Below, in pieces: positions 40,390 through 52,246 of a DNA stretch of 63,761 bases. Made by a program: the position numbers and the translations under genes. Origin of the DNA: Thermotogota bacterium (GTDB lineage Bacteria > Thermotogota > Thermotogae > Thermotogales > Thermotogaceae). The notes beneath the pieces are model-generated. The model had not been told where the DNA came from. It ran no database searches and was given only the letters and a program-made list of their open reading frames with translations. The stretch is taken from NCBI GenBank assembly GCA_030550515.1, contig JAUQPE010000012.1, forward strand, positions 19,873-83,633, read 5' to 3'. The stretch's first letter is position 1, and each line of letters starts with the position of its first letter.

Positions 40390-40830
40390 AACGCATATGT
40401 CGAAGACGAGGTCTCCCACGGTGAGGGAGATGGTGTTTCCCGTCCTCACAAAGGACAACTTCTTTTTCGTCTCGATGAGCACGTTGTTTCCTTCCCCACT
40501 CAAGCCGATTCGAACGACCTTGGTGATCCCCTTGTCCTCGACGATCTGGTACATGATCCTGCCGGTTTTTCCGTTGTAATCGGCCCTGAAGTTGAAGTAA
40601 TTCTTCGAAAAGAACACGGCTGGATCTTTCGCGTGTTTGTACTTGTACTCCTGGACTACGAAGTCCACGAGGAAGAGTTCGTCGACGAGCGCCTCCAGGT
40701 CTTTCATCAGGGAGTACTTTGCGGCGAGGACGTTGGAGACGGAGAGGAAACCAACGTACGCGATGATACAGAAGCACAGAAGGAACACGAGCGTTTCCAG
40801 GAGGGTGTACCCAAAAAAGAAATGCACCAC
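40381..40830 (-). CDS. Prepilin-like protein (type IV pilin N-terminal signal)
   Basis: The product opens MVHFFFG and then YTLLETLVFLLCFCIIAYVG, a class III prepilin signal: short leader, Gly before the cut, Glu at position 5 of the mature protein, then a 20-residue hydrophobic helix. The remaining 110 residues are a soluble head without recognised domain. The likely start is GTG 40830 (or 40827), with GAGGGTGG a few bases upstream. Start codon and ribosome-binding site lie inside the 3' end of the SRP RNA gene; the frame upstream of this point is RNA-coding, not protein. The prepilin peptidase at 53426-54151 could process it. It may be a minor pilin or pseudopilin. Confidence 0.75.
   Translation of the reverse strand: MVHFFFGYTLLETLVFLLCFCIIAYVGFLSVSNVLAAKYSLMKDLEALVDELFLVDFVVQEYKYKHAKDPAVFFSKNYFNFRADYNGKTGRIMYQIVEDKGITKVVRIGLSGEGNNVLIETKKKLSFVRTGNTISLTVGDLVFDICVLK
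40813..40823 (-). terminator. T-rich tract ending the SRP RNA
   Basis: On the minus strand the closing helix of the SRP RNA is followed directly by ATTTCTTTTTT, a terminator-like tract. The same bases encode the His-Phe-Phe-Phe of the prepilin-like leader. Read-through would be needed for the prepilin-like gene to be expressed from the SRP RNA promoter. Confidence 0.6.
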
Positions 40831-41095
40831 GCACCCACCCTCGACAATCCCGGACCGGTCCGCGTGCGATCTTCCAGCTCCGGCTGGGCTCCCCCACGGC
40901 ACACAGGGGCACCTGCTTATGGCTGCTCCCTTCCGGGCCTGACCAGGTTCACAGGGCCCTGTTGCGTGGGACCCAACCTTCGTCGCCTTCCGACCGCACC
41001 GGTCCCCGACCCGAGAAGCCTCAGGTGGGAGTTCGGCCCCGCGTGTGGCGGATTTCGGGTTCAGGGGACCGCCAGCCCCCCGCCTAGCGTGGTGC
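40824..41095 (-). ncRNA. ffs: Signal recognition particle RNA, large (Bacillus-type) form
   Basis: On the minus strand GGTCAGGCCCGGAAGGGAGC contains the GGAA tetraloop and asymmetric loop of SRP helix 8, where Ffh binds, followed by AGCC. The 5' end (GCTAGGCGGGGGG, then GGTCCCCTGAACCC) matches the Alu-domain start of large bacterial SRP RNAs. The ends GCACCACGC (41087-41095) and GCGTGGTGC (40824-40832) are perfectly complementary and close helix 1, giving 272 bases, almost the size of the Bacillus subtilis RNA (271). GC content is very high, as expected for a thermophile RNA. It targets secretory proteins with Ffh, which is encoded elsewhere. Confidence 0.96.
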
Positions 41096-41597: not shown

Positions 41598-42533
41598 GTG
41601 GAGAAATGGGTGATAGTTTTCTTGGTTTCGGTGTGTGTCCTTTCGTTTGGAATGACGACGTACAGGTACAACAGGGAGACCGGGAGGTGGGAGAGAAAGA
41701 TCGACACCTGTGGTTTCTTCTCACCAATTCAAACTGTCTCATCCCTTGTTCCCCCAACCGCACCTCAGGGTGCCGTCAAAGGAGGACAGTGGTATTACTG
41801 GATGGAATACTCACTTCACGAAGGCGAAAAATCCTTCACCCTTTGGGCGGGGAAGACGGTCGATGTGGGCGTCGTCACCGTTCAAACCGATGGGAGAAAT
41901 TTGCGCATCGACGTGGAGCTTTGGGAAGGTTACCTCGCCACCGAATCACACCTCGATGTCGCCTTGGCGGAACCGACGGGAAACCAAGTTCCCGGCCACT
42001 TCCCATACAAAACAACCTACAACCCTGCGACATCCAGTTTCAGCTACGAGGTACCCCTCTCCGAAGTGTTTGCCAAAAACCGAGGAGCCTCTGAGACGTT
42101 CTACATCCTGCTGCACGCGAAAATCCTCGCGAACGGTGGAGAGGAAACCGCTTGGGGTGGGAAACCATCGGATTCTTTCTGGGTAGTCTTAAGCGGAACC
42201 AACTTGAACTGGTTCGTGAGAAAGCCGGGAGTGTACGTGATCAAGGCGATGGATATCCAGATCAAGACGAAGAAGGTTCTTCAGGTGATCGTTTCCGTTC
42301 AGAATCCTTCCAACGAAAAGGGAGAGCTTGAAACCCTCGTCGGTATCTCTTCTGGACGGGATCTTCCCACGAACTGGCAAAAATCGCTCTCTTTCTCGAC
42401 GTACAGCGGTTTTGCGATTTGGCAAAAGGTGATCGTGTCGCAAGAATCGATTTGCACCTACAGGGGAACGGGGACCATCACCTTCAGCATCACAAACTGT
42501 GAAGTTCACATCGATGGCTCACCTGAAAGGTGA
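41598..42533 (+). CDS. Secreted protein of unknown function, WFVRKPG family (longest of three)
   Basis: Unrecognised. From GTG 41598 the product has a signal peptide (WVIVFLVSVCVLSFG) and about 311 residues, mostly beta-rich. It begins after the signal with YRYNRETGRWERKIDTCG, like the second paralogue. Residues about 190-305 contain LNWFVRKPGVYVIKAMDIQI and a later CTYRGTGTITFSI; both blocks recur in the next two genes, so the three form a family. The N-terminal half (residues 20-190) is extra, with YYWMEYSLHEGEKSFTLWAG echoing the LEWSL block. It opens a co-directional run ending in a secretin and a barrel-like protein. A structural or surface role is inference. Confidence 0.7.
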   Translation: MEKWVIVFLVSVCVLSFGMTTYRYNRETGRWERKIDTCGFFSPIQTVSSLVPPTAPQGAVKGGQWYYWMEYSLHEGEKSFTLWAGKTVDVGVVTVQTDGRNLRIDVELWEGYLATESHLDVALAEPTGNQVPGHFPYKTTYNPATSSFSYEVPLSEVFAKNRGASETFYILLHAKILANGGEETAWGGKPSDSFWVVLSGTNLNWFVRKPGVYVIKAMDIQIKTKKVLQVIVSVQNPSNEKGELETLVGISSGRDLPTNWQKSLSFSTYSGFAIWQKVIVSQESICTYRGTGTITFSITNCEVHIDGSPER

Positions 42534-42551
42534 GAAAAGGAGGGAGTCTCT

Positions 42552-43223
42552 ATGAGGAAGCTTCTCTGGTTAGTTTTGGCGGCAGCGTTGTTCACCTTCG
42601 GCATGGCCCAAATGCCACTCGAAGTGTGGAAATACGATCCGGAAACGGGACAGTACATCTCTCTTCCAGCCACGAACAACCTCGCCAGGGCCTTCAGCTC
42701 GGATCCAGCGAGTGGTTCCTGCAACAGGAGACAGTGGACCGTCGAGTTCACAACGGAAGTGCAAGTCGCACAGTGGTTGGAATGGAGCTTGAACGCGACG
42801 AAGTGGACGTGGTTTGTGAGGAAGCCGGGAGATTACTACGCAAACTCCGTGATCGGCACGATCGCGAGCAACGGTGACGTAGTTGTGAGTTTTGCAGGTT
42901 TCGACGATCTGCAGTACACGGGATCTTCCAGCGTAAACCCATTCATAGAGACGTACTACGCGGTCACAAGTGGCGCTCTTCCCGGCACGAACGACTGGAT
43001 CAGGGCTTCCAACCTCAACCAGATGACCGCGACGATAAGGGACAGCGCTGCACTTCACGCTGGGAAGTCTTTCTACCTCTGGAACAGGATCAAGGTAGTG
43101 GAGTGCAACTCCGCATCCACTTACAGGGACACCGGCTACGTGTACCTGACGCTCCAGAACCAGAAACCTTGGATAGACGAGCAGGGAGAATTCGTGCCTA
43201 ATCTTGAAGAGTACGTGCAGTGA
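42552..43223 (+). CDS. Secreted protein of unknown function, WFVRKPG family (second)
   Basis: A 223-residue protein with a clear signal peptide (LLWLVLAAALFTFGMAQ). The mature part is beta-rich: SGSCNRRQWTVEF, VAQWLEWSLNATKWTW, FVRKPGDYY, VVVSFAGFDDLQY, then ECNSASTYRDTGYVYLTL and the end NQKPWIDEQGEF plus NLEEYVQ. Two cysteines (in SCNRR and ECNSA) are shared with the next paralogue and may form a disulfide. Strong GGAGGGAG ribosome-binding site. The acidic, identical C-terminal EEYVQ in this and the next protein suggests a recognition signal, perhaps for the secretin or chaperone-like protein downstream (inference). Confidence 0.75.
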   Translation: MRKLLWLVLAAALFTFGMAQMPLEVWKYDPETGQYISLPATNNLARAFSSDPASGSCNRRQWTVEFTTEVQVAQWLEWSLNATKWTWFVRKPGDYYANSVIGTIASNGDVVVSFAGFDDLQYTGSSSVNPFIETYYAVTSGALPGTNDWIRASNLNQMTATIRDSAALHAGKSFYLWNRIKVVECNSASTYRDTGYVYLTLQNQKPWIDEQGEFVPNLEEYVQ

Positions 43224-43255
43224 CCTTGATGTTCAAAAAATGAGGAGGGATGATC

Positions 43256-43891
43256 ATGAGGAAGATTCTTTTTGTGCTCGCGTTGGCAATGATTGGTTTG
43301 ATAACGTTCGCCCAAGTATCCGTTCCCGTTTACTCTTACACCGGGAATGCCTCTGATGCCAGGGCGTACATCAGCGACCCAGCGGGTGGTTCCTGCAACA
43401 AGAGAGTTTGGGAGATCCCGGTCACCGTGGAAGCCCAAATCGCGCAGTGGGTGGAGTGGTCCCTCACCGGTACGAAGTGGACGTGGTTTGTGAGGAAACC
43501 CGGTATCTACGTTGCGAACTGCATAACTGCAGTGCTCAGGAGCAACGGTAACCTCGGAATCACGTTCAGCGGCTTCGACCATCTCAAATACGTCCAGGGC
43601 AACAGTGTCGACGATACCATAGAAGTTGAATACGCCTTCGGTCCACAACTTCCTCCACAGGCTTGGATACCAGCACCTGACCTCAACAACCTCCAGCTTG
43701 TAATCGAGGACAGTTCAGTCCTCCACAGAGGTGCCACCTACAAGCTCTGGAACAGGATATACGTGGAAAGATGTAACAGTGCCTCCACGTACAGGGACAG
43801 CGGTACCATCACGCTCACCCTGTTGAACCAGAAACCTTGGATAGACGATGAGGGGAACTTTGTGGAAGATCTGGAAGAGTACGTGCAGTAA
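43256..43891 (+). CDS. Secreted protein of unknown function, WFVRKPG family (third)
   Basis: A 211-residue paralogue of the preceding gene. Signal peptide ILFVLALAMIGLITFAQ, then GGSCNKRVWEIPV, IAQWVEWSLTGTKWTW, FVRKPGIYVANC, ITFSGFDHLKYV, ERCNSASTYRDSGTITLTL and NQKPWIDDEGNF, ending LEEYVQ. An extra Cys (VANCIT) is present. I place the start at ATG 43256, six bases after GAGGAGGG; ATG 43250 is too close. A strong hairpin follows (43909-43938), so this is the last gene before an expression step-down. Confidence 0.75.
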   Translation: MRKILFVLALAMIGLITFAQVSVPVYSYTGNASDARAYISDPAGGSCNKRVWEIPVTVEAQIAQWVEWSLTGTKWTWFVRKPGIYVANCITAVLRSNGNLGITFSGFDHLKYVQGNSVDDTIEVEYAFGPQLPPQAWIPAPDLNNLQLVIEDSSVLHRGATYKLWNRIYVERCNSASTYRDSGTITLTLLNQKPWIDDEGNFVEDLEEYVQ

Positions 43892-43908
43892 AAATCTTGT
43901 TCCATCGA

Positions 43909-43944
43909 TAAGGGCGGGGGATGAGACCCTCGCCCTTACATTTT
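43909..43944 (+). terminator. Strong hairpin with T-run between the secreted proteins and the downstream machinery
   Basis: TAAGGGCG (43909-43916) pairs with CGCCCTTA (43931-43938); inner G and C bases extend the stem to about 12 pairs with a six-base loop, followed by CATTTTCG. It lies within a run of genes on one strand, so it may be a partial terminator that lets the small subunits be made in excess over the secretin and chaperone-like protein. Confidence 0.7.
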
Positions 43945-43964
43945 CGTTGGGAGAGTGATGGGGT

Positions 43965-45596
43965 ATGAGAAGGTTTCTTCTGATCGGCTTGAGCCTCTTG
44001 AATTTTTTGATCGTATTCTCTCAAGGGATTTCTCTGAGGATGGATCCTATATTGGTGACCAAGAACGTACAGGCCGGTGCCAGTTTCAGTTACGAGATAT
44101 TCCTGGAGAACGGCGACGAGTTCGATCCAGTCACGTTGAAGGTGCTCGTGCTGGACATCGTGGAAAACTTGGAAGGCGCTTACGATCTCAAAGAACCAGG
44201 CAGCACAAGGTACTCGATTGCAAAGTTCGTGAAGGTTGAACCTAGCGTTTTGACGATTTCTCCGAAAGAAACCAAAATTGTTCGAGTCACCGTGAACGTC
44301 CCAAAGAACGCTTCGGGAGGGTTGTACGGAGCGATCGCGTTCGAGATACAGAGCACGGAACCAACCGGCGAAAGACCGGCGGAAGAGGGTGCTTACGGTG
44401 AACTCGAATTCAAGTACAGGATGGCGAGCTTTCTGGAAGTCACTGTGGAGGGTGGGAGGAAGGTTCTCACAGCGTTTCCTTCACACTTTCTGGTTGAAAG
44501 GTCAGAAAACGTTCCCTCCGCAAAGACCTTGGTTGGAGAAGGTGCCCTTGTCTTCACACTCGGCGTCTTGAACAAGAGCAACGTCCACATCGTGACGAAG
44601 GGTACGTTGACGATAAAGACCTCGGACGGAAGGACCATAGCGAAGATGCCTCTGGGTGGTGGAAGGGGAGTGATACTCCCAGAAGCCACGGTGAACATGA
44701 GGACCATCACTCGAAGAAACCTTCCACCCGGCGAGTACGTGGCTCGTGCGGTCGTGGAATACGGAAGTCAAAGGCCAATCGTTGTCGAGAAGAGCTTCGT
44801 CATCTCATCGGAGGGAATAGGTGGAAAAGAGGAAAAAAGAGAAGAACATCCCATAATGCTGGTAGTCGATCCGATGAACCTCGAGATCATGACCTCCCCC
44901 GGTGCGTTCAGGTCCGAAACCGTGAAAGTCACGAACTTGGGGAAAGAAGAAATCCAAGTCACGGCTTCAGTCTATCCCCTCCTCTACGATCTGTACGGGG
45001 AACCAGTTCCCAAGGAAGAAAGGGGTGTTGCACCAAGTTGGATCGAGGTGACCCCGGTATCTTTCAGTTTGAAGCCCAACCAGTCCAGAAACGTCAGGGT
45101 CTCCGTGAGGGTTCCGAAGGAATTTTCGGGCAGCTATTACGCCGATTTGATGTTCAGAACAGAGGGAAACCTCCAGGCGGAAGTTGGAGCCAACCTGTTG
45201 GTTTTCGCGGGAAAGGCCGAAAGCATAACGAAGAAGGCGAGTGTGGACATGACACACCAGGTGATGAAAGGGGAGGGTGTGTACCTGGACATCGTTTTCG
45301 AAAACGTTGGAAACTATCACCTCTCGCCAACGTTCGTTTTCGCACTCGACAAGGTGAAACCCCAGACGGTGACAGAGGAGGGTTTGATCGTTCCCGAAGA
45401 GAGTCAAAGGTTAATCCAGCAGGACATCACGACGAACTATCCGGTGCTTCCCAACACGAAGAGAGTCTACAGGGTCTTCATCCCCATGAACCTGGAACCG
45501 GGAACCTACAACTTGTTAGTCAGGTGCGATTTCGGAGGGGAGAACCCTGTGATCTTGAGGAAGACGTTTCAAATAGAAGGGAGTGATGGGGAATGA
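43965..45596 (+). CDS. Exported tandem PapD-like/DUF916-type protein
   Basis: A 543-residue protein with a signal peptide (FLLIGLSLLNFLIVFSQG). It contains two similar halves. In the first, VEPSVLTISPKETKIVRVTV, NVPKNASGGLYGAIAFEI; in the second, VTPVSFSLKPNQSRNVRVSV, RVPKEFSGSYYADLMF. This PapD-like immunoglobulin pattern (strand, then KP or PKE with an Arg/Val strand, then P..A/SGGxYxG) occurs in pilus chaperones and in DUF916 surface proteins linked to WxL proteins. Each half continues with a second beta domain (EVTVEGGRKVL; NLLVFAGKAES). No membrane anchor is visible at the C-terminus. It is coupled to the secretin gene by four bases. A chaperone or scaffold role for the upstream secreted proteins is inference. 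Confidence 0.72.
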   Translation: MRRFLLIGLSLLNFLIVFSQGISLRMDPILVTKNVQAGASFSYEIFLENGDEFDPVTLKVLVLDIVENLEGAYDLKEPGSTRYSIAKFVKVEPSVLTISPKETKIVRVTVNVPKNASGGLYGAIAFEIQSTEPTGERPAEEGAYGELEFKYRMASFLEVTVEGGRKVLTAFPSHFLVERSENVPSAKTLVGEGALVFTLGVLNKSNVHIVTKGTLTIKTSDGRTIAKMPLGGGRGVILPEATVNMRTITRRNLPPGEYVARAVVEYGSQRPIVVEKSFVISSEGIGGKEEKREEHPIMLVVDPMNLEIMTSPGAFRSETVKVTNLGKEEIQVTASVYPLLYDLYGEPVPKEERGVAPSWIEVTPVSFSLKPNQSRNVRVSVRVPKEFSGSYYADLMFRTEGNLQAEVGANLLVFAGKAESITKKASVDMTHQVMKGEGVYLDIVFENVGNYHLSPTFVFALDKVKPQTVTEEGLIVPEESQRLIQQDITTNYPVLPNTKRVYRVFIPMNLEPGTYNLLVRCDFGGENPVILRKTFQIEGSDGE

Positions 45597-46744
45597 AAAG
45601 CCTGACGATGGTAGTGTTGTTGCTTGCCGGCGTCGTGCTCTCGCAAGTTGTGACCAACATCTTCCAGGACACCTACATACTCGATGCTCTCGCGGACATC
45701 TCCGCCCAGACGGGAATCCCGATCGTGGTCGACACGATGGTCACGGGATTCGTCACGCTCGAGTTGAACGAGGTTCCCTTAGAACAGGCACTCCAGATGA
45801 TACTGATGCCCGGTGGTTACGTCTACAAGAAGATGGATGGCTTTTACTTTGTGGGATCTCCGGATCCGAAGAACCCCGCGTACAGGTTCCTCACGGAAAC
45901 GGAAGTGATCAAACTGAAGCACATCAGCGTGGCGGACGCTCAAGAGTTGCTGCCCACCCATTACAAGGATTACGTGAGATTCAGTGAGAAGACCAACACG
46001 GTCTCCATTTCCGCACCCAGCGAGATTGTGGAAAAGTTCAAGCGAGACCTCGCGAAGATAGACGTTCCCATTCCTCAGGTCAAGGTGAACGTGGTGGTGA
46101 CCGAGATCTCGAAGGGTTACTCCCAGGAACTTGGGTTGAACAGCTTGACCTTCTCCTTCGGGGCTGGGGAGTCCCTCAACCAGGAATGGCAGGCTACCAT
46201 CGGTATCGTTGGGGGCCTCTTGAACCTGGAAACGGACATCTTTGGGCGTATCCTCTCGCGGCTGAAGCTCTTGGAAGAGGAAGAAAAGGCGAAGATCACG
46301 GCGGATCCTTGGATCATCGTGAAGAGCGGCGAGACGGCCTCCCTGTTTCTGGGAGAAAGGCAGATAGTTCTCCTGGAGGCCGAAGGAGCGGTGAGTAGGA
46401 TCGAATCGATAGACATCGGCGTACGCGTGGACATAACACCGAAGGTACTCGAGAGCGGTGAAATAGAGCTGAGTCTTTCCCCGCGTGTGAGTCACTTTGT
46501 GGGTGAAAGGCTTGGAAACATCGCCATAAAACAGAACGAGGTGTCGACGACGATCCGCGTAAAGAGCGGCCAAACTGTCGTGATCGCTGGTGCCACGGTT
46601 GAGGATAAAAGCCAGACCAGCAGTGGATTCCCTATCCTGAGCAGGATACCACTCCTTAGATACCTCTTCGGTGGTACCACGAAGACCGAGACGGAAAAAG
46701 AGCTTTACATCCTGCTCAAGGTGGACCTCCAGGGAAGTGAGTGA
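45593..46744 (+). CDS. Secretin-family outer-membrane channel protein
   Basis: A 383-residue protein with signal peptide (LTMVVLLLAGVVLSQ), an N-terminal N0/STN-like domain (DALADISAQTGIPIVVD, PLEQALQMILMPGGYVYKK), an N1-type domain (EVIKLKHISVADAQELLP, VSISAPSEIVEKFKRDLAKID) and a C-terminal secretin domain (VKVNVVVTEISKGYSQELG, ADPWIIVKSGETASL, VKSGQTVVIAGATVEDKSQ, SRIPLLRYLFG). Secretins form the outer-membrane gate of type II secretion, type IV pili and related systems. It is short for PilQ or GspD, with fewer N-domains and no visible lipid anchor. No ATPase or inner-membrane platform gene lies beside it. Confidence 0.9.
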   Translation: MKSLTMVVLLLAGVVLSQVVTNIFQDTYILDALADISAQTGIPIVVDTMVTGFVTLELNEVPLEQALQMILMPGGYVYKKMDGFYFVGSPDPKNPAYRFLTETEVIKLKHISVADAQELLPTHYKDYVRFSEKTNTVSISAPSEIVEKFKRDLAKIDVPIPQVKVNVVVTEISKGYSQELGLNSLTFSFGAGESLNQEWQATIGIVGGLLNLETDIFGRILSRLKLLEEEEKAKITADPWIIVKSGETASLFLGERQIVLLEAEGAVSRIESIDIGVRVDITPKVLESGEIELSLSPRVSHFVGERLGNIAIKQNEVSTTIRVKSGQTVVIAGATVEDKSQTSSGFPILSRIPLLRYLFGGTTKTETEKELYILLKVDLQGSE

Positions 46745-46746
46745 AG

Positions 46747-47859
46747 ATGAAAGGATCCTTTTTCTTCGTTTTCGTTTTCCTGTTCTTCTCTCTTTCCCTG
46801 CTCTTTGGGGAATCGCCCGTGTTTCTGTACCAGTTCGCGCTCGCCCAGGTGAAGGAAGTGAAAGGAGCCGATTTGAAGTTCAAGGAGCTGGGGTTGGAAA
46901 AAGGTGAAGAGGGCGCCATCGTTTTCGAAGACAAAAACTTTCTGCTGAAGTTGTTTCGTTTCGAACTCTCCTTCGACCTTCCAAGAATCCAGGAAAACTA
47001 CGAAGTGCTAGGAAAGCCTTGGATCGTGGTGACGATGGGAAACAAGGCAGCGCTGAAGATGGAAAAAGAAGAGTTCCTCGGAAGAGCGGGTTGGACGGTG
47101 ACTGGAGGATTCGCGTTGGAAGTGACACCAGTTCAGGTGGATGAGAAGAGAGGGGTCTTGACCGAAATCGATGTCGGCGTGCCCCCTTCTAGCTTGAAGA
47201 CAAAACTTTGGTTGCGGGAAGATGCCTTTACGCCTCTCTTTTCTTGCGAGTTGAAGACGAAGGAGAGCAGAAAAAAGCTCGCAGTGTTTGCCAAGGTGGT
47301 AGTTTTGAAAGAGCTCCCAAAAGAGAAAGTCGTCGTGATGGGCGACCTGAGAGGTTTCGAAGAATTTGCGCCGAGTGTGGAAGCGGAAAAGGAGAAATCC
47401 TCGATCACGGTCTCATCCTTGCCGGATCTCGAACTCAACGTCTGGCTTACGGGAAAGCTGAGGATAAGTGTTTCCAGCGATTGGGCTTTTTTGGGAGCCA
47501 AGATCTCCAAGGAAGGTTTGATGGTGGGAGCGATCCTTGTGTACGATGGGGAAATCGGGGTTGGCCTCTTCGACAAATCAGATTTGTCCAGCGGGACACT
47601 CTCGGGTGGTGCGTGGATCTTGATCGACGCGAAAAGTTGGAGTTTCTCAGGTCTTCTGTTCATGGGTGGAGTGGAGATAGGTTCCAGAAGGCTCTACCTC
47701 GATTTCTCCTTCGCTTGTAAGTTGGGGGGGAACGGCAACTCTCAGAAGGCCATCCTGAGGGTTGGTTACAGGGTCAACGAGTACTTGGTGGTCTTCACGG
47801 GAGTCGCTTTGGGAACAGACAGCACGCGCGCAATTGTAGGATTCAGGATAGAGTTCTAG
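46747..47859 (+). CDS. Exported beta-rich protein, possible outer-membrane barrel
   Basis: Unrecognised. Signal peptide FFFVFVFLFFSLSLLFGES is followed by about 345 residues rich in beta strands. The last 130 residues alternate polar and non-polar residues in strand-like runs (VGAILVYDGEIGVGLFD, SFSGLLFMGGVEIG, LYLDFSFACKLG, AILRVGYRVNEYLVVFTGVA) and the chain ends VGFRIEF with a terminal Phe, the usual C-terminal signal of outer-membrane barrels. The N-terminal two-thirds look soluble. ATG 46747 follows GGAAGTGAG; GTG 46741 overlaps the secretin stop. It could work with the secretin as pilotin, partner barrel or anchor. Confidence 0.65.
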   Translation: MKGSFFFVFVFLFFSLSLLFGESPVFLYQFALAQVKEVKGADLKFKELGLEKGEEGAIVFEDKNFLLKLFRFELSFDLPRIQENYEVLGKPWIVVTMGNKAALKMEKEEFLGRAGWTVTGGFALEVTPVQVDEKRGVLTEIDVGVPPSSLKTKLWLREDAFTPLFSCELKTKESRKKLAVFAKVVVLKELPKEKVVVMGDLRGFEEFAPSVEAEKEKSSITVSSLPDLELNVWLTGKLRISVSSDWAFLGAKISKEGLMVGAILVYDGEIGVGLFDKSDLSSGTLSGGAWILIDAKSWSFSGLLFMGGVEIGSRRLYLDFSFACKLGGNGNSQKAILRVGYRVNEYLVVFTGVALGTDSTRAIVGFRIEF

Positions 47860-48899
47860 TGAGCCACGTCGTAATCTTCCTTCTCTATCCCCATTTCTCC
47901 CAACGCCTTGATGATCCTATCCTCTACGATCTGGCGTCTCTGCGGTGAGCAGTTTATCAACAGGTACATCCTGTTCTTCTCCACCGAGACAACGTCGCCT
48001 TTTCGAAGCAGGGACGCCAGCTTTTTCGACAGGAGAGACACGTCCACCCCTTCCTTGAAGGTCAAAACGAATGCAATTGTGTCCGGATTTCTCTTCCTGG
48101 ACTCTATTAACGTGAGCTTGTCGAACAATTCCTTGCTCACAACGATCGCTTTGTTACCGTCTTGCAGTATCTTCTCGTCCTGCTTCAAAACTTCCTCCAA
48201 GGTGAGCTGTGGCTCGAGGTTGAGCTCCCTCAAACGTTCTTTCATGCGTTGGTAGAGGTTCACAACTTGCGTGATGTTCCCTTCCCTCTTCAAGATCTCC
48301 ATGGCCTTGTAGTAGATCTGTTCGTCGTAGGGCTCCCTTCGAAGGTAGATCCTCAACACTTCGGACGCTTCCTCGTACCTCCCCTCCTGTAGGTAGAAGT
48401 TCAGCGACTCCCTCAAAACGTCCGTGTACATGCTTTCGTACCTTTCCCTCTCCTCTTCCACCCACTCTTCGTAAGGATCTTCCACCATGAACGGCCCTCT
48501 GTACATTTCTCTCAGGTCCGCCAGAATTTTTTCTTTATCTTCTCTCGAAAGGTTTGCGTGTTTGAGACGGGAATGGAGAGTCTCTAACGCATCGGCATCG
48601 ATCTCCACGCGCTTGGATGGAAAGAAACCACAAGTATCGCCCTTCAGATGCAACTCCTCAGGAGTGAGACCCACCGTCTTCCTTATCAGGTAGAGGGTGG
48701 TGTTCAAGTTGGACCTCGCGTACTCCTCGTCCATATCCTTCCAGAACAACTCGTAAATCTCTTCCAAAGGTATCCTGCGGTTTCTCTTGCAGACCAAGTA
48801 TCGAAACAGAGAAAAAGCCTTTTGGGACGTCCAATCTTCCGCATCGATCACTCCTTCTTCGGTTGTTACCCGAAAACCCCCAAAGGTTTCTATCCTCAT
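47856..48899 (-). CDS. SARP/BTAD-type transcriptional regulator
   Basis: Residues 1-95 form an OmpR-like winged helix (IETFGGFRVTTEEGVIDAEDW, SQKAFSLFRYLVCKRNRRIP, EEIYELFWKD, ARSNLNTTLYLIRK), and residues 100-250 a bacterial transcriptional activation (BTAD) domain of TPR-like helices (YEEWVEEERERYESMYTDVL, YEEASEVLRIYLRREPYDEQ). The last 90 residues are a separate small domain (PDTIAFVLTFKEGVDVSLLS) of unknown kind. No receiver domain is present. It converges on the barrel-like gene with a four-base overlap and has its own promoter. Control of the adjacent secretion cluster is possible but not shown. Confidence 0.85.
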   Translation of the reverse strand: MRIETFGGFRVTTEEGVIDAEDWTSQKAFSLFRYLVCKRNRRIPLEEIYELFWKDMDEEYARSNLNTTLYLIRKTVGLTPEELHLKGDTCGFFPSKRVEIDADALETLHSRLKHANLSREDKEKILADLREMYRGPFMVEDPYEEWVEEERERYESMYTDVLRESLNFYLQEGRYEEASEVLRIYLRREPYDEQIYYKAMEILKREGNITQVVNLYQRMKERLRELNLEPQLTLEEVLKQDEKILQDGNKAIVVSKELFDKLTLIESRKRNPDTIAFVLTFKEGVDVSLLSKKLASLLRKGDVVSVEKNRMYLLINCSPQRRQIVEDRIIKALGEMGIEKEDYDVAH

Positions 48900-48974: not shown

Positions 48975-51080
48975 TCAAACGCCGTTTTTGAGCAGTTCCA
49001 AAGCTATTTTCAGAATTTCGGGATCCCACTGAAAATTCTCGTTTTTTTCGAGAATCGCTATCGCTTCTTCTTTACTCAACGCCCTCCTGTACGGTCTGTC
49101 GCTGGTCATGGCGTCGAAGGCATCGGCCACAGCGATGATTCTCGACTCTAAGGGGATCTCATCCCCTTTCAGACCGTCGGGATAACCTCCCCCGCCGTAC
49201 CACTCGTGGTGGTGTCTCACGATCTTCGCCACGTCCTGGAAACTTTTTATCTTCATCAGTATGCTTTCACCCAGCTCGGTATGCTTTTTAACTTCTTCGT
49301 ATTCGGCGCCGGTGAGTTTCGAAGATTTGTTGAGTATGGTTTCTCTCACGCCGATCTTTCCAACGTCGTGTAGGAGGGCCGCTATCTTGACCTTCTCCAC
49401 GCGTTCTTTCGGAAGACCCATCCGTTCCGCGATCTTCACGGAAAGTTCCATCACCCTTCTGCTGTGACCGTGCGTGTAAGGGTCTCTGAGTTCGACCGTG
49501 TACGAGAGAGTTTCCACGATCTGGAAGAAGGTCTCCTTCAACTCGTTGTACAAGATGAGCCTTGCGAATATCAAACAGACTATTCTCACGAACATCTTGA
49601 GCAGAGAAACGTCCATGTTCGTGAACATCTCTTTCCGCTCCACTTCCACCACCACCGGGGGGATCCCAGGGACTTCGAAGAAGAGGGCCACCGCCGCCCT
49701 GGCCTCTCCTCCCGTCACGTCGTAGAAACTTTCTTCTTCTTCGACGTTCTGCACGATCACGTCCCGCTTCGCTTCGAAAGCCTCTAGTACGAGGCCCTTC
49801 TCCAAGTAGATCTCTTTCAGGCTATCGGTGAAGTAGTACGTCTTCACCTTTTCACCTTCTTTTATGGACAGGGACGAGAGTACCGAGTCTGGGAACATTT
49901 TCTTTACGCTGATCAAGATGTTCTCTATTATTTCCTCGCGGGTTTCCTTCGAAAGTATGGCGTTCAGGGACTCTATCATGTCGCCCAGGGAGGTCTGCTG
50001 CCTTTCGAGTTCTTTGTAATCCCTGTGTGCCTTCAGAACGAAGGTCACAAGGTTGAGCACCGATTCCACGTAGAACTCTTCGTCTTTTTCCAAGTCTCTG
50101 GACACGTAGATCTCCACTTCCACATCTTCATCGCTCTTGACCACCACGAATTCCCACATTTCTCCCCACTGCCTCGTCGTGCCGTTGATCTTCACGCTCA
50201 TACCCTTCACAGCATCGATCACAAGTTGCAGGTCTGAGAATATCCTCTCGACGGTCCAGAAGGGATCTTCCTTCACGTCGATGCTTTGGAGGATGCTGAT
50301 CGTCTCTCTGAGTTGGTTGGAGAGGTTCAAAAGACTTTCGTAAGAGGCCTCCAGTTCTTCGTTCATCGCGGTGAGTTCCTCGTTAAGGGCGCTGAGTTCT
50401 TGGTTGGCCGCCGTGAGTTCCTCCCTCGTCTCTTGAAGTTTTTCTTCGAGTTCCCTGGTGACTTTTTTCTTGATGGTGTTCGAAAACACGGAAAAAAGAA
50501 CCGCACTCGCGAACGCAGCGGACGAGAGAGCCGTGGATGAAAAATCCCTTCTGGGAACGGTTTCTACCAAGATGGAACCGGCGAAGAAGATTAGCAAAAA
50601 TTGCATCACAAACCACGCGATTTCCCTCTTTTCCTTCAATCGAACGGTGTAGGCGATGAAAACAATCGTGTAGATGCAGGAGAACGCAACCGTGAAGACG
50701 AAATCGTTCTTAAAGAAAAGGAACGGAAGGCTCAAGAAAAACCATCGGGTGGGCATCGAAAAGACGGCAAAACTTACGAAACCAAAGAGGGACACGCAGA
50801 AGACATCGCGCCCTCCCAAGAGAAAGGGAAGAGAAAGAAGGGCGTTGTACCCCACACGCTTCCAGTTCTTCCCGTGGAACACCAGAAATAGGACGAGCAA
50901 AACACATACCACAAAAGAAAGCCTTGGATTCAAGGAAGAAGCCACGGAGAAAGCCATCAAGGAGACCGCGACCAATACCCTGAGACGCGCAGGATACCTT
51001 TCTTCTTCGATGATCCCTGTCAGGGCAACCGTTCCAAAGAAGAAGTAGGGAATCAGGTAGAAGAGTAGACTTCTATCCAA
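48975..51080 (-). CDS. Membrane-bound HD-GYP domain protein, cyclic-di-GMP phosphodiesterase type
   Basis: From TTG 51080 (GGAGGG nine bases upstream) the protein has 701 residues. Residues 1-190 hold six or seven membrane helices; a coiled coil follows ([20 protein letters not shown] and on, about 200-260); a GAF-like sensor region covers about 280-520; the HD-GYP domain ends the chain, with the HD pair near residue 571 ([10 protein letters not shown]), HHHEWYGG, and [12 protein letters not shown] near 632. HD-GYP proteins usually break down cyclic-di-GMP. The longer reading to 51248 is out-of-frame aminotransferase. It overlaps that gene by 28 bases. The sensed signal is unknown. Confidence 0.92.
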
Positions 51081-52246
51081 GTTTTCAGACCCTCCAAGAG
51101 CACATCCATCGCCCTCGCGAGATCCTCTTCTTTTAGAACGCACGCGATCCTTATCTCGTCCCTTCCAAGGCCCGGTGTCGAGTAGAAACCTCTCAAGGGG
51201 GCCACCATGGTCGTTTCCATCTCCAAGTTGAAGTCCTTGAGCATCCATTTCGCGAACTCCTCAGCGTCCTCCACGGGGAGTTTCACGGTCACGTAGAACG
51301 CCCCACCAGGCCTGGTGAAACTCTTAATTCCAGCCCTTTCGAGCTTTTCGCAGACGATCTTCACCCTCCTGAAGTAAGTGTTCCTCACGAACTCAAAGAA
51401 CTCGTCTCCCAAGTTCAAAAGTCCTATCGATCCGATCTGCTCGAGGAGGGGTGGCGCGAGCCTACCTTGAGCAAGTTTCATCGCGTTCCTCAAGATCTCT
51501 TCGTTCTTCGTGATGAGACATCCCACTCTGGCACCGCAGGCGCTGAACTTCTTGGAGACACTGTCCACAACGACCACCCTCTTGGAGTCCAGAGAGAGAG
51601 CCGTCGCGAAGTCCCCACCAAAAACGATCTCGCTGTACACTTCGTCGACGATGAGGTAAAGGTTGTGTTTTTCGGCGATCTCGAGCAACTTCTCCATGTC
51701 TCTCCTCCCGTAGACCACGCCGGTTGGGTTGCAAGGATTTGACAGCACGATCGCCTTCGTCTTAGAGGAGATCACCTTCGAGAACTCCCTCTCTTCCGGT
51801 ATCGCAAAACCGTTTTCTTCTCTCCTGGTCACCGGCACAAGATGGGCACCCACGATCCTCGCGAAAGTCTCGTAATTGGCGTAGAACGGCTCCAAAGCCA
51901 ATATTTCATCTCCAGGATTGGTCACTATGGAGAAGGCAAAAAGGATGGCCTCGCTGGCACCGTTCGTCACCAAAACGTGATCTGGGCTCACGTCGACCCT
52001 CTGTCGTCTCTTGTAGTACTCGGCGAAGGCCTCCCTGAGTTCCCACAAACCGGCGGAGTGGGAATAGTACACGACCTTCGGCCTGCTCGCTAGGATGTAC
52101 TCGTAGAACACGGAAGGCGTCTCCAAGTCGGGCTGGCCAATGTTGAGATGGTAGATTCTGATGCCTCTCTTTTTCGCCTCTTCAGCGTACGGGACGAGCT
52201 TTCTGATCGGGCTCTCTTCCGCCTTCAATATTCGGTCCGAGAGCAT
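51053..52246 (-). CDS. Class I/II aminotransferase (aspartate aminotransferase-like)
   Basis: A PLP-dependent enzyme of fold type I. The PLP lysine lies in [31 protein letters not shown] is the NPTG block, [15 protein letters not shown] carries the PLP-contacting Asp and Tyr, and DEIRIACV includes the C-terminal Arg that binds the substrate carboxylate. Length is 397 residues. The active-site lysine block reads SKKFSACG, slightly different from the SKxFxxxGxRxG norm but with the pattern intact. Substrate range is not certain. It lies between the RlmI-like gene and the HD-GYP gene. Confidence 0.92.

Follow-up and report, generated by a model that had tools for sequence, protein, structure and literature searches.

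A conserved Thermotogota gene module with a tandem WxLIP-like protein and a short secretin: a candidate chaperone–secretin pathway

Six consecutive genes in a 63,761-nt stretch of a Thermotogota genome (assembly GCA_030550515.1, contig JAUQPE010000012.1, positions 19,873 to 83,633; hereafter the window) encode three exported proteins, P1, P2 and P3, a tandem WxLIP/PapD-like protein, a short secretin and a sixth protein, gene 6, which joins a secretin-derived region to an end of the outer-membrane-barrel type. We regard it as an evenly balanced proposition that this locus, at window positions 41598-47859 on the plus strand, encodes a chaperone–secretin pathway by which pilin-like subunits are assembled into a surface structure. 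Support is good for the linkage of the genes, the WxLIP homology, the presence of a secretin and the derivation of gene 6 from a secretin, and moderate for a pilin-like fold of P2; from these elements we infer the transport, the polymerization and the final structure considered in the Discussion. A first-pass annotation made from the sequence alone had placed six same-strand genes here, at the coordinates that we find, and had read them as subunits, a chaperone-like protein and an outer-membrane gate. In outline, this reading is borne out by the P2 fold, the WxLIP homology, the secretin, the C-terminus of gene 6 and the near-perfect linkage, but it changes in two respects, as the PapD-like protein is closer to WxLIP than to PapD, and gene 6 is itself derived from a secretin.

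Results

Whether the genes belong together had been left to the comparison of related genomes, and there they do stay together. We surveyed 103 Thermotogota genomes with a profile of 33 PapD-like sequences, which found matches in 65 genomes, full-length or nearly so in 57. For 63 of the 67 full-length or near-full-length PapD-like copies, found in 53 genomes of more than 20 genera, a short secretin is encoded on the same strand no more than 300 bp downstream, an adjacency for which the probability by chance is negligible if the genes were unlinked. The four exceptions are G020 and G021, in which the secretin lies 2.5 kb away, one gap of 574 bp and one contig end. The order of small exported proteins, PapD-like protein, short secretin and gene 6 recurs in almost all of 40 regions that we examined, and several genomes carry two modules, each with its own, different subunits. 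The same order is found in three metagenome-assembled genomes (MAGs) labelled Firmicutes, Bacillota or 'bacterium' (loci L156, L158 and L159), with the gene after the secretin in L156 and L158 encoding a shorter protein not recognizably related to gene 6.

Reduced forms of the module occur as well. Three loci of one family (L163, 6364-9233; L164, 4374-7362; L165, 6186-9139) contain the PapD-like gene and gene 6, with neither a secretin nor subunits adjacent. The genome under study itself holds a decayed second module on another contig (C19; locus L172, 4734-7485), in which a subunit gene is present and the PapD-like gene is missing, the secretin is reduced to residues ~283-378, and gene 6 is trailed by a gene for a small exported protein, an arrangement also seen in locus L135, in its second module.

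The tandem WxLIP/PapD-like protein (43965-45596, +) is a candidate periplasmic chaperone. The two PapD-like halves noted in the first-pass annotation are indeed homologous (hhalign E-value 2.4e-27; domain 1 versus domain 3, 1.5e-18; domain 2 versus domain 4, 2e-15), and the protein is thus a duplicated two-domain immunoglobulin (Ig) protein with four Ig-like domains. Domain 1 matches WxLIP_PGBD (PF06030) above the cut-off (E 2.6e-8), a family also matched by 20 of the 33 tandem relatives at E 0.01, and the PapD-like profile retrieves EfmWxLIP1 from the PDB (9i1y) at E 5e-12. PF11797 (WxLIP HBD) is matched weakly in two of the 33 tandem proteins. The AlphaFold 2 (AF2) model, with a predicted local distance difference test (pLDDT) score of 82, was aligned by Foldseek to WxLIP with a template-modelling (TM) score of 0.50-0.54 of the target (0.54 for 9i1y). 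The protein ends in ...RKTFQIEGSDGE with no hydrophobic segment and so lacks the C-terminal membrane helix that WxLIP has. By homology, then, the PapD-like protein is nearer to Gram-positive WxLIP than to the PapD chaperones. For WxLIP itself, AlphaFold predicts that a strand is inserted into the WxL partner in a donor-strand-like manner (PMC10599100).

A relative of this chaperone with a single unit (259-265 aa) is encoded at three further loci (L166, 3330-7954; L167, 3480-8064; L168, 5054-8473), between small exported proteins and a protein of 652-881 aa. Read by eye, the 881-aa protein starts with Ig domains, continues into a barrel-like region and ends in two beta-sandwich domains, an usher-like order, but it matches no usher family in Pfam; the 652-881 aa protein is possibly an unrecognized type of usher. 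This layout offers a parallel that supports the chaperone role of the PapD-like protein.

The secretin (45593-46744, +; 383 aa), a candidate outer-membrane pore, is unambiguous, as had been proposed (PF00263, E 2.1e-36; PF03958, E 1e-6), and comprises an N0/STN domain, one N1-type domain and the secretin core. It matches PilQ and GspD structures by sequence, while staying below the curated cut-offs for both PilQ (124.7 versus 284 bits) and GspD (97.5 versus 351 bits). No motor ATPase gene adjoins the module, in agreement with the first-pass annotation: the T2SSE ATPase genes of the 1.61-Mb host genome reside on contigs C27 and C6 and the module on contig C9 (the platform protein family was not searched for). 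A separate, 1292-aa secretin is encoded in the same genome.

The product of gene 6 (46741-47859, +) is exported and combines a secretin-derived region (about residues 28-223) with a beta-rich C-terminal segment. Since iteration of the gene 6 profile merged it with the secretins, the homology was checked separately by hhalign and proved real: the family of the window's gene 6 aligns with the secretin family over ~190 columns at 5.7e-7, and a more distant gene 6 family aligns with secretins over the N domains at 1.3e-37. The terminal phenylalanine, previously taken as barrel-type, belongs to a conserved pattern, with F, W or Y as the last residue in 35 of 41 relatives versus 0 of 40 secretins and 1 of 40 PapD-like proteins, and with hydrophobic residues at positions -1, -3, -5, -7 and -9 in about 90% of the relatives. 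Judged by sequence, gene 6 appears to be a secretin-derived fragment carrying a C-terminus of the outer-membrane-barrel type, with its secretin origin well supported.

The subunit genes lie upstream: P1 at 41598-42533, P2 at 42552-43223 and P3 at 43250-43891, all on the plus strand, with P1 starting at a GTG where its close relatives begin with VRKWG or MRKWG. All six products of the module, including the three for which signal peptides had been claimed, start with a hydrophobic, signal-peptide-like N-terminus. The description of P1-P3 as three paralogues holds in full for P2 and P3 (48% identity over the full length, E 4e-76, with an identical LEEYVQ end, the common acidic terminus noticed earlier), but for P1 it applies to the last ~110 residues only (E 5e-9; profile 4.5e-11). 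Likewise, the cysteine block said to be shared by all three is present in each but differs in form, being C-TYR in P1 and C-NSAS-TYR in P2 and P3. The invariance of C57 and C185 (P2 numbering) across 16 P2/P3-type proteins suggests that a disulphide likely connects the GSCN and CNSA blocks, and a Q-W ... S-N-G pattern is conserved when the more distant small subunits are aligned.

Of the two domains of P1, the C-terminal one is of the P2/P3 type and constant, and the N-terminal one (about residues 60-196) is exchangeable: at loci L156 and L159, its place is taken by a different domain fused to the common C-terminal one. By analogy, this architecture resembles that of pilus tip adhesins and of large WxL proteins (PMC9772566) and makes P1 a candidate tip subunit. 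P1 residues 86-143 (41854-42027, +) show a weak similarity, below the cut-off, to the diatom pyrenoid shell family PF25192 (E 0.03).

Against Pfam, NCBIfam and the PDB sequences, three small-subunit sets, which include P1-P3 as well as small proteins encoded in the other modules, produced nothing beyond chance matches. The first-pass annotation had named sugar-binding proteins as an example of an unrelated known family to which P1-P3 might belong, and these searches ruled such an identity out. The WxL domain was matched neither by P1 (E up to 0.1-1) nor by the 16 P2/P3-type proteins (E up to 10). With P2 as a single sequence, a scan of the genome contigs gave no match, while an alignment-based P2 search of these contigs found five loci; iteration of the P2 profile had strayed to secretins and gene 6 by the sixth round, and its late members were excluded.

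The AF2 model of P2, built from a seven-sequence alignment, has a pLDDT of 65, with a beta core (residues 76-205) exceeding 70 in most blocks. The best Foldseek match in the PDB is CfaB (2e-4, probability 1.0), followed by CsuE (1.4e-3) and then CS17, with further matches to type 1, CFA/I, Csu, CupE and Caf1 subunits (including CsuA/B, FimG and FimA), and the top 50 are mostly donor-strand-complemented pilins or other fibre proteins. We consider a pilin-like fold of P2 moderately supported by this model. The mature N-termini of Thermotoga-type P2 and P3 form a conserved short alternating strand (LEVWKY, VPVYSY), which is a candidate donor strand.

Between P3 and the PapD-like gene, a terminator-like hairpin (43909-43938, +) consists of a 12-bp stem and a T-rich tail, with a fold z of -4.4. 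Most other loci have a hairpin of different sequence in the same gap (z from -5.1 to -0.5). Partial terminators are usual between abundant subunit genes and assembly genes, and the hairpin is a probable partial terminator that would raise the ratio of subunits to machinery. Downstream of it, the PapD-like gene, the secretin gene and gene 6 consecutively overlap by 4 bp each, which suggests coupled translation. The end of gene 6 meets a gene on the opposite strand (47856-48899, -) that encodes a BTAD (SARP-type) protein (PF03704, E 4e-14), a candidate regulator; of the loci examined, 21 contain a BTAD homologue, and its distance to the PapD/secretin block is often 0-3 kb. Neither the hairpin nor this recurrent neighbour had been noticed in the first-pass annotation.

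On its other side, the module is flanked by a divergent gene just upstream of P1 (41136-41399, -), the orthologue of the cupin TM1112 (PDB 1lkn/1o5u, 4e-53), and a TM1112-type cupin adjoins P1 in all seven Thermotoga-type loci tested. By locus numbering, the six genes probably correspond to TM1113-TM1118, with P1 probably the orthologue of TM1113 and the short secretin probably that of TM1117. Calling the system undescribed, as the first-pass annotation did, overlooks that TM1117 has been listed, together with TM0088, as a pilQ secretin (PMC5637354, Table 6); three secretins are given for T. neapolitana in the same table. Literature searches covering TM1113-TM1118, the fibrils of Thermotoga cocultures and the combination of secretins with PapD turned up nothing on the module, the neighbour TM1112 being the only useful entry.

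Further out, the window contains a large bacterial signal recognition particle (SRP) RNA gene (40827-41092, -; RF01854, 175 bits) and, directly downstream of it (40381 to ~40830, -), a gene for a prepilin-like protein (FFGYTLLETLVFLL...) with a weak match to ComGF, a minor pilin of competence systems (E 2.5e-4). Beside the BTAD gene, a gene at 48975-51248 (-) encodes a protein with a hydrophobic N-terminal half and a C-terminal HD_5 domain, possibly a cyclic-di-GMP phosphodiesterase.

Discussion

In a survey of diderm bacteria, the Thermotogae lacked every protein secretion system searched for, and it was suggested that they evolved a system of their own, adapted to the toga (PMC4793230). The module described here is a concrete and testable candidate for such an export system of Thermotogota.

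Assembly may be pictured as follows. Sec would export P1-P3 into the periplasm, in keeping with the signal peptides seen, and the tandem WxLIP-like protein would donate a strand that caps the incomplete beta-sandwich of each subunit, a step suggested by the WxLIP homology taken together with the pilin-like fold. The capped subunits could then be passed to the short secretin as the outer-membrane channel, with the help of gene 6, whose secretin-derived periplasmic part would be fixed to an outer-membrane barrel. There, the N-terminal strand of each subunit would displace the chaperone strand of the next one, so that export and polymerization would be powered by folding energy instead of ATP; this would explain a secretin that works without a motor ATPase. 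P1, with its exchangeable N-terminal domain, would occupy the tip, the partial terminator after P3 would make the subunits outnumber the machinery, and the BTAD protein may regulate the locus.

Several observations weigh against this scheme. We know of no secretin that exports chaperone-capped subunits and of no fibre attributed to this module. The P2 model has a pLDDT of only 65, and its TM score to the best pilins, ~0.5 by target, drops below 0.4 by query, while the top structural matches of the PapD-like model by E-value are generic Ig arrays. None of the 33 tandem proteins matches PF00345 (PapD_N) at E 0.01, and one single-unit relative reaches it at only E 0.03. No secretin gene adjoins those of nine distant chaperone relatives. 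Finally, no transport would be needed for a folded WxLIP-like scaffold to act.

The last point leads to the main rival explanation, which we judge rather unlikely: the module would be the diderm counterpart of a WxL cluster, that is, a static envelope complex forming no fibre, in which P1-P3 and the WxLIP-like scaffold link the cell wall, the outer membrane and the toga, and the secretin and gene 6 serve mainly as an anchor. The affinity of the PapD-like protein, which is closest to WxLIP, speaks in its favour, and so does the WxL-like make-up of the cluster, with small subunits and a larger protein having the common domain at its C-terminus (PMC9772566); WxL clusters are described as surface platforms, not fibres. 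However, the subunits have no detectable WxL domain and the WxLIP-like protein no C-terminal membrane helix, it would be odd for an anchor to consist of a secretin that is kept at almost all loci, and the hairpin suggests that subunits are made in excess.

Two other explanations fare considerably worse. The module might be a small type II-like route for soluble hydrolases, with P1-P3 as periplasmic adaptors or cargo and not as structural subunits. Thermotogae are reported to have no known protein secretion system (PMC4793230) and yet display hydrolases on the toga (PMC3387000), so that some route is needed; but the module has no motor ATPase next to it, its constant partners are not enzymes but pilin-like proteins, and each module of multi-module genomes has its own subunits, all of which makes this proposal improbable. 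Least probable of all is that the secretin is a second PilQ serving type IV pili or DNA uptake, with accessory neighbours, because, despite the listing of TM1117 beside TM0088 as pilQ (PMC5637354, Table 6), the best score among secretin models going to PilQ and the ComGF-like minor pilin ~1 kb away on the other strand, the protein falls far short of the PilQ cut-off, the genome has its separate 1292-aa secretin and its T2SSE ATPases elsewhere, and in 53 genomes the short secretin goes together with the WxLIP-like gene. The 'pilQ' label of TM1117 is, hence, probably wrong.

Returning to the chaperone–secretin pathway, we tentatively put forward, at somewhat less than even confidence, that the module represents a new class of donor-strand surface-fibre assembly, built on a tandem WxLIP-like chaperone, an ATPase-free secretin and a barrel partner derived from a secretin. 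As such, it would serve Thermotogota as a native route of export and assembly at the outer envelope, present in several specialized copies in some genomes and shared with the MAGs labelled Firmicutes or Bacillota. If true, a secretin can work without a motor ATPase, with subunit folding supplying the energy; Gram-positive WxL clusters, chaperone–usher pili and secretins become linked; the 'pilQ' label of TM1117 is corrected; and a heat-stable pilus-like assembly system becomes available for structural work.

Comparison with known systems

With the secretins PilQ, GspD, SctC and pIV, the short secretin shares N0/N1-type domains and the PF00263 core, and its size (383 aa) is near that of the phage virion export protein (414 residues, 7ofh). 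Unlike these, it has no adjacent motor ATPase, its constant partner is a WxLIP-like protein, and it is accompanied by a second, secretin-derived gene with a barrel-type end. Classical type IV pilus or type II secretion identity was rejected for the module. The TasA/TapA matrix fibres of Bacillus also do without an usher and consist of beta-sandwich filaments held by donor strands, with an Ig-fold helper dedicated to them (PMC10151520), but they belong to a single-membrane system without an outer-membrane pore, and we found no sequence relationship between them and the module.

Chaperone–usher pili need no ATP because folding drives their assembly. The archaic and alternative types (Csu, CFA/I) resemble the module in their pilin-like Ig-fold subunits, in a first subunit enlarged by an additional N-terminal domain, in a periplasmic Ig-fold partner and an outer-membrane protein, and in having no ATPase. 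In contrast, the module has a secretin and a secretin-derived barrel protein in place of an usher, its chaperone is tandem, WxLIP-like and outside PapD_N, and its subunits match no pilin family by sequence. The usher family PF00577 scored above the cut-off in 0 of the 103 Thermotogota genomes, with a positive E. coli control, and classical chaperone–usher identity was rejected.

The Gram-positive WxL/WxLIP clusters, too, encode exported subunits of small size, a single larger protein that carries the common domain at its C-terminus and one WxLIP-like Ig protein, the last being homologous to EfmWxLIP1 by both sequence and fold. The module differs from them in having no detected WxL domain, in the duplication of the WxLIP unit and its lack of a C-terminal membrane helix, and in adding an outer-membrane secretin and a barrel protein to this shared set.

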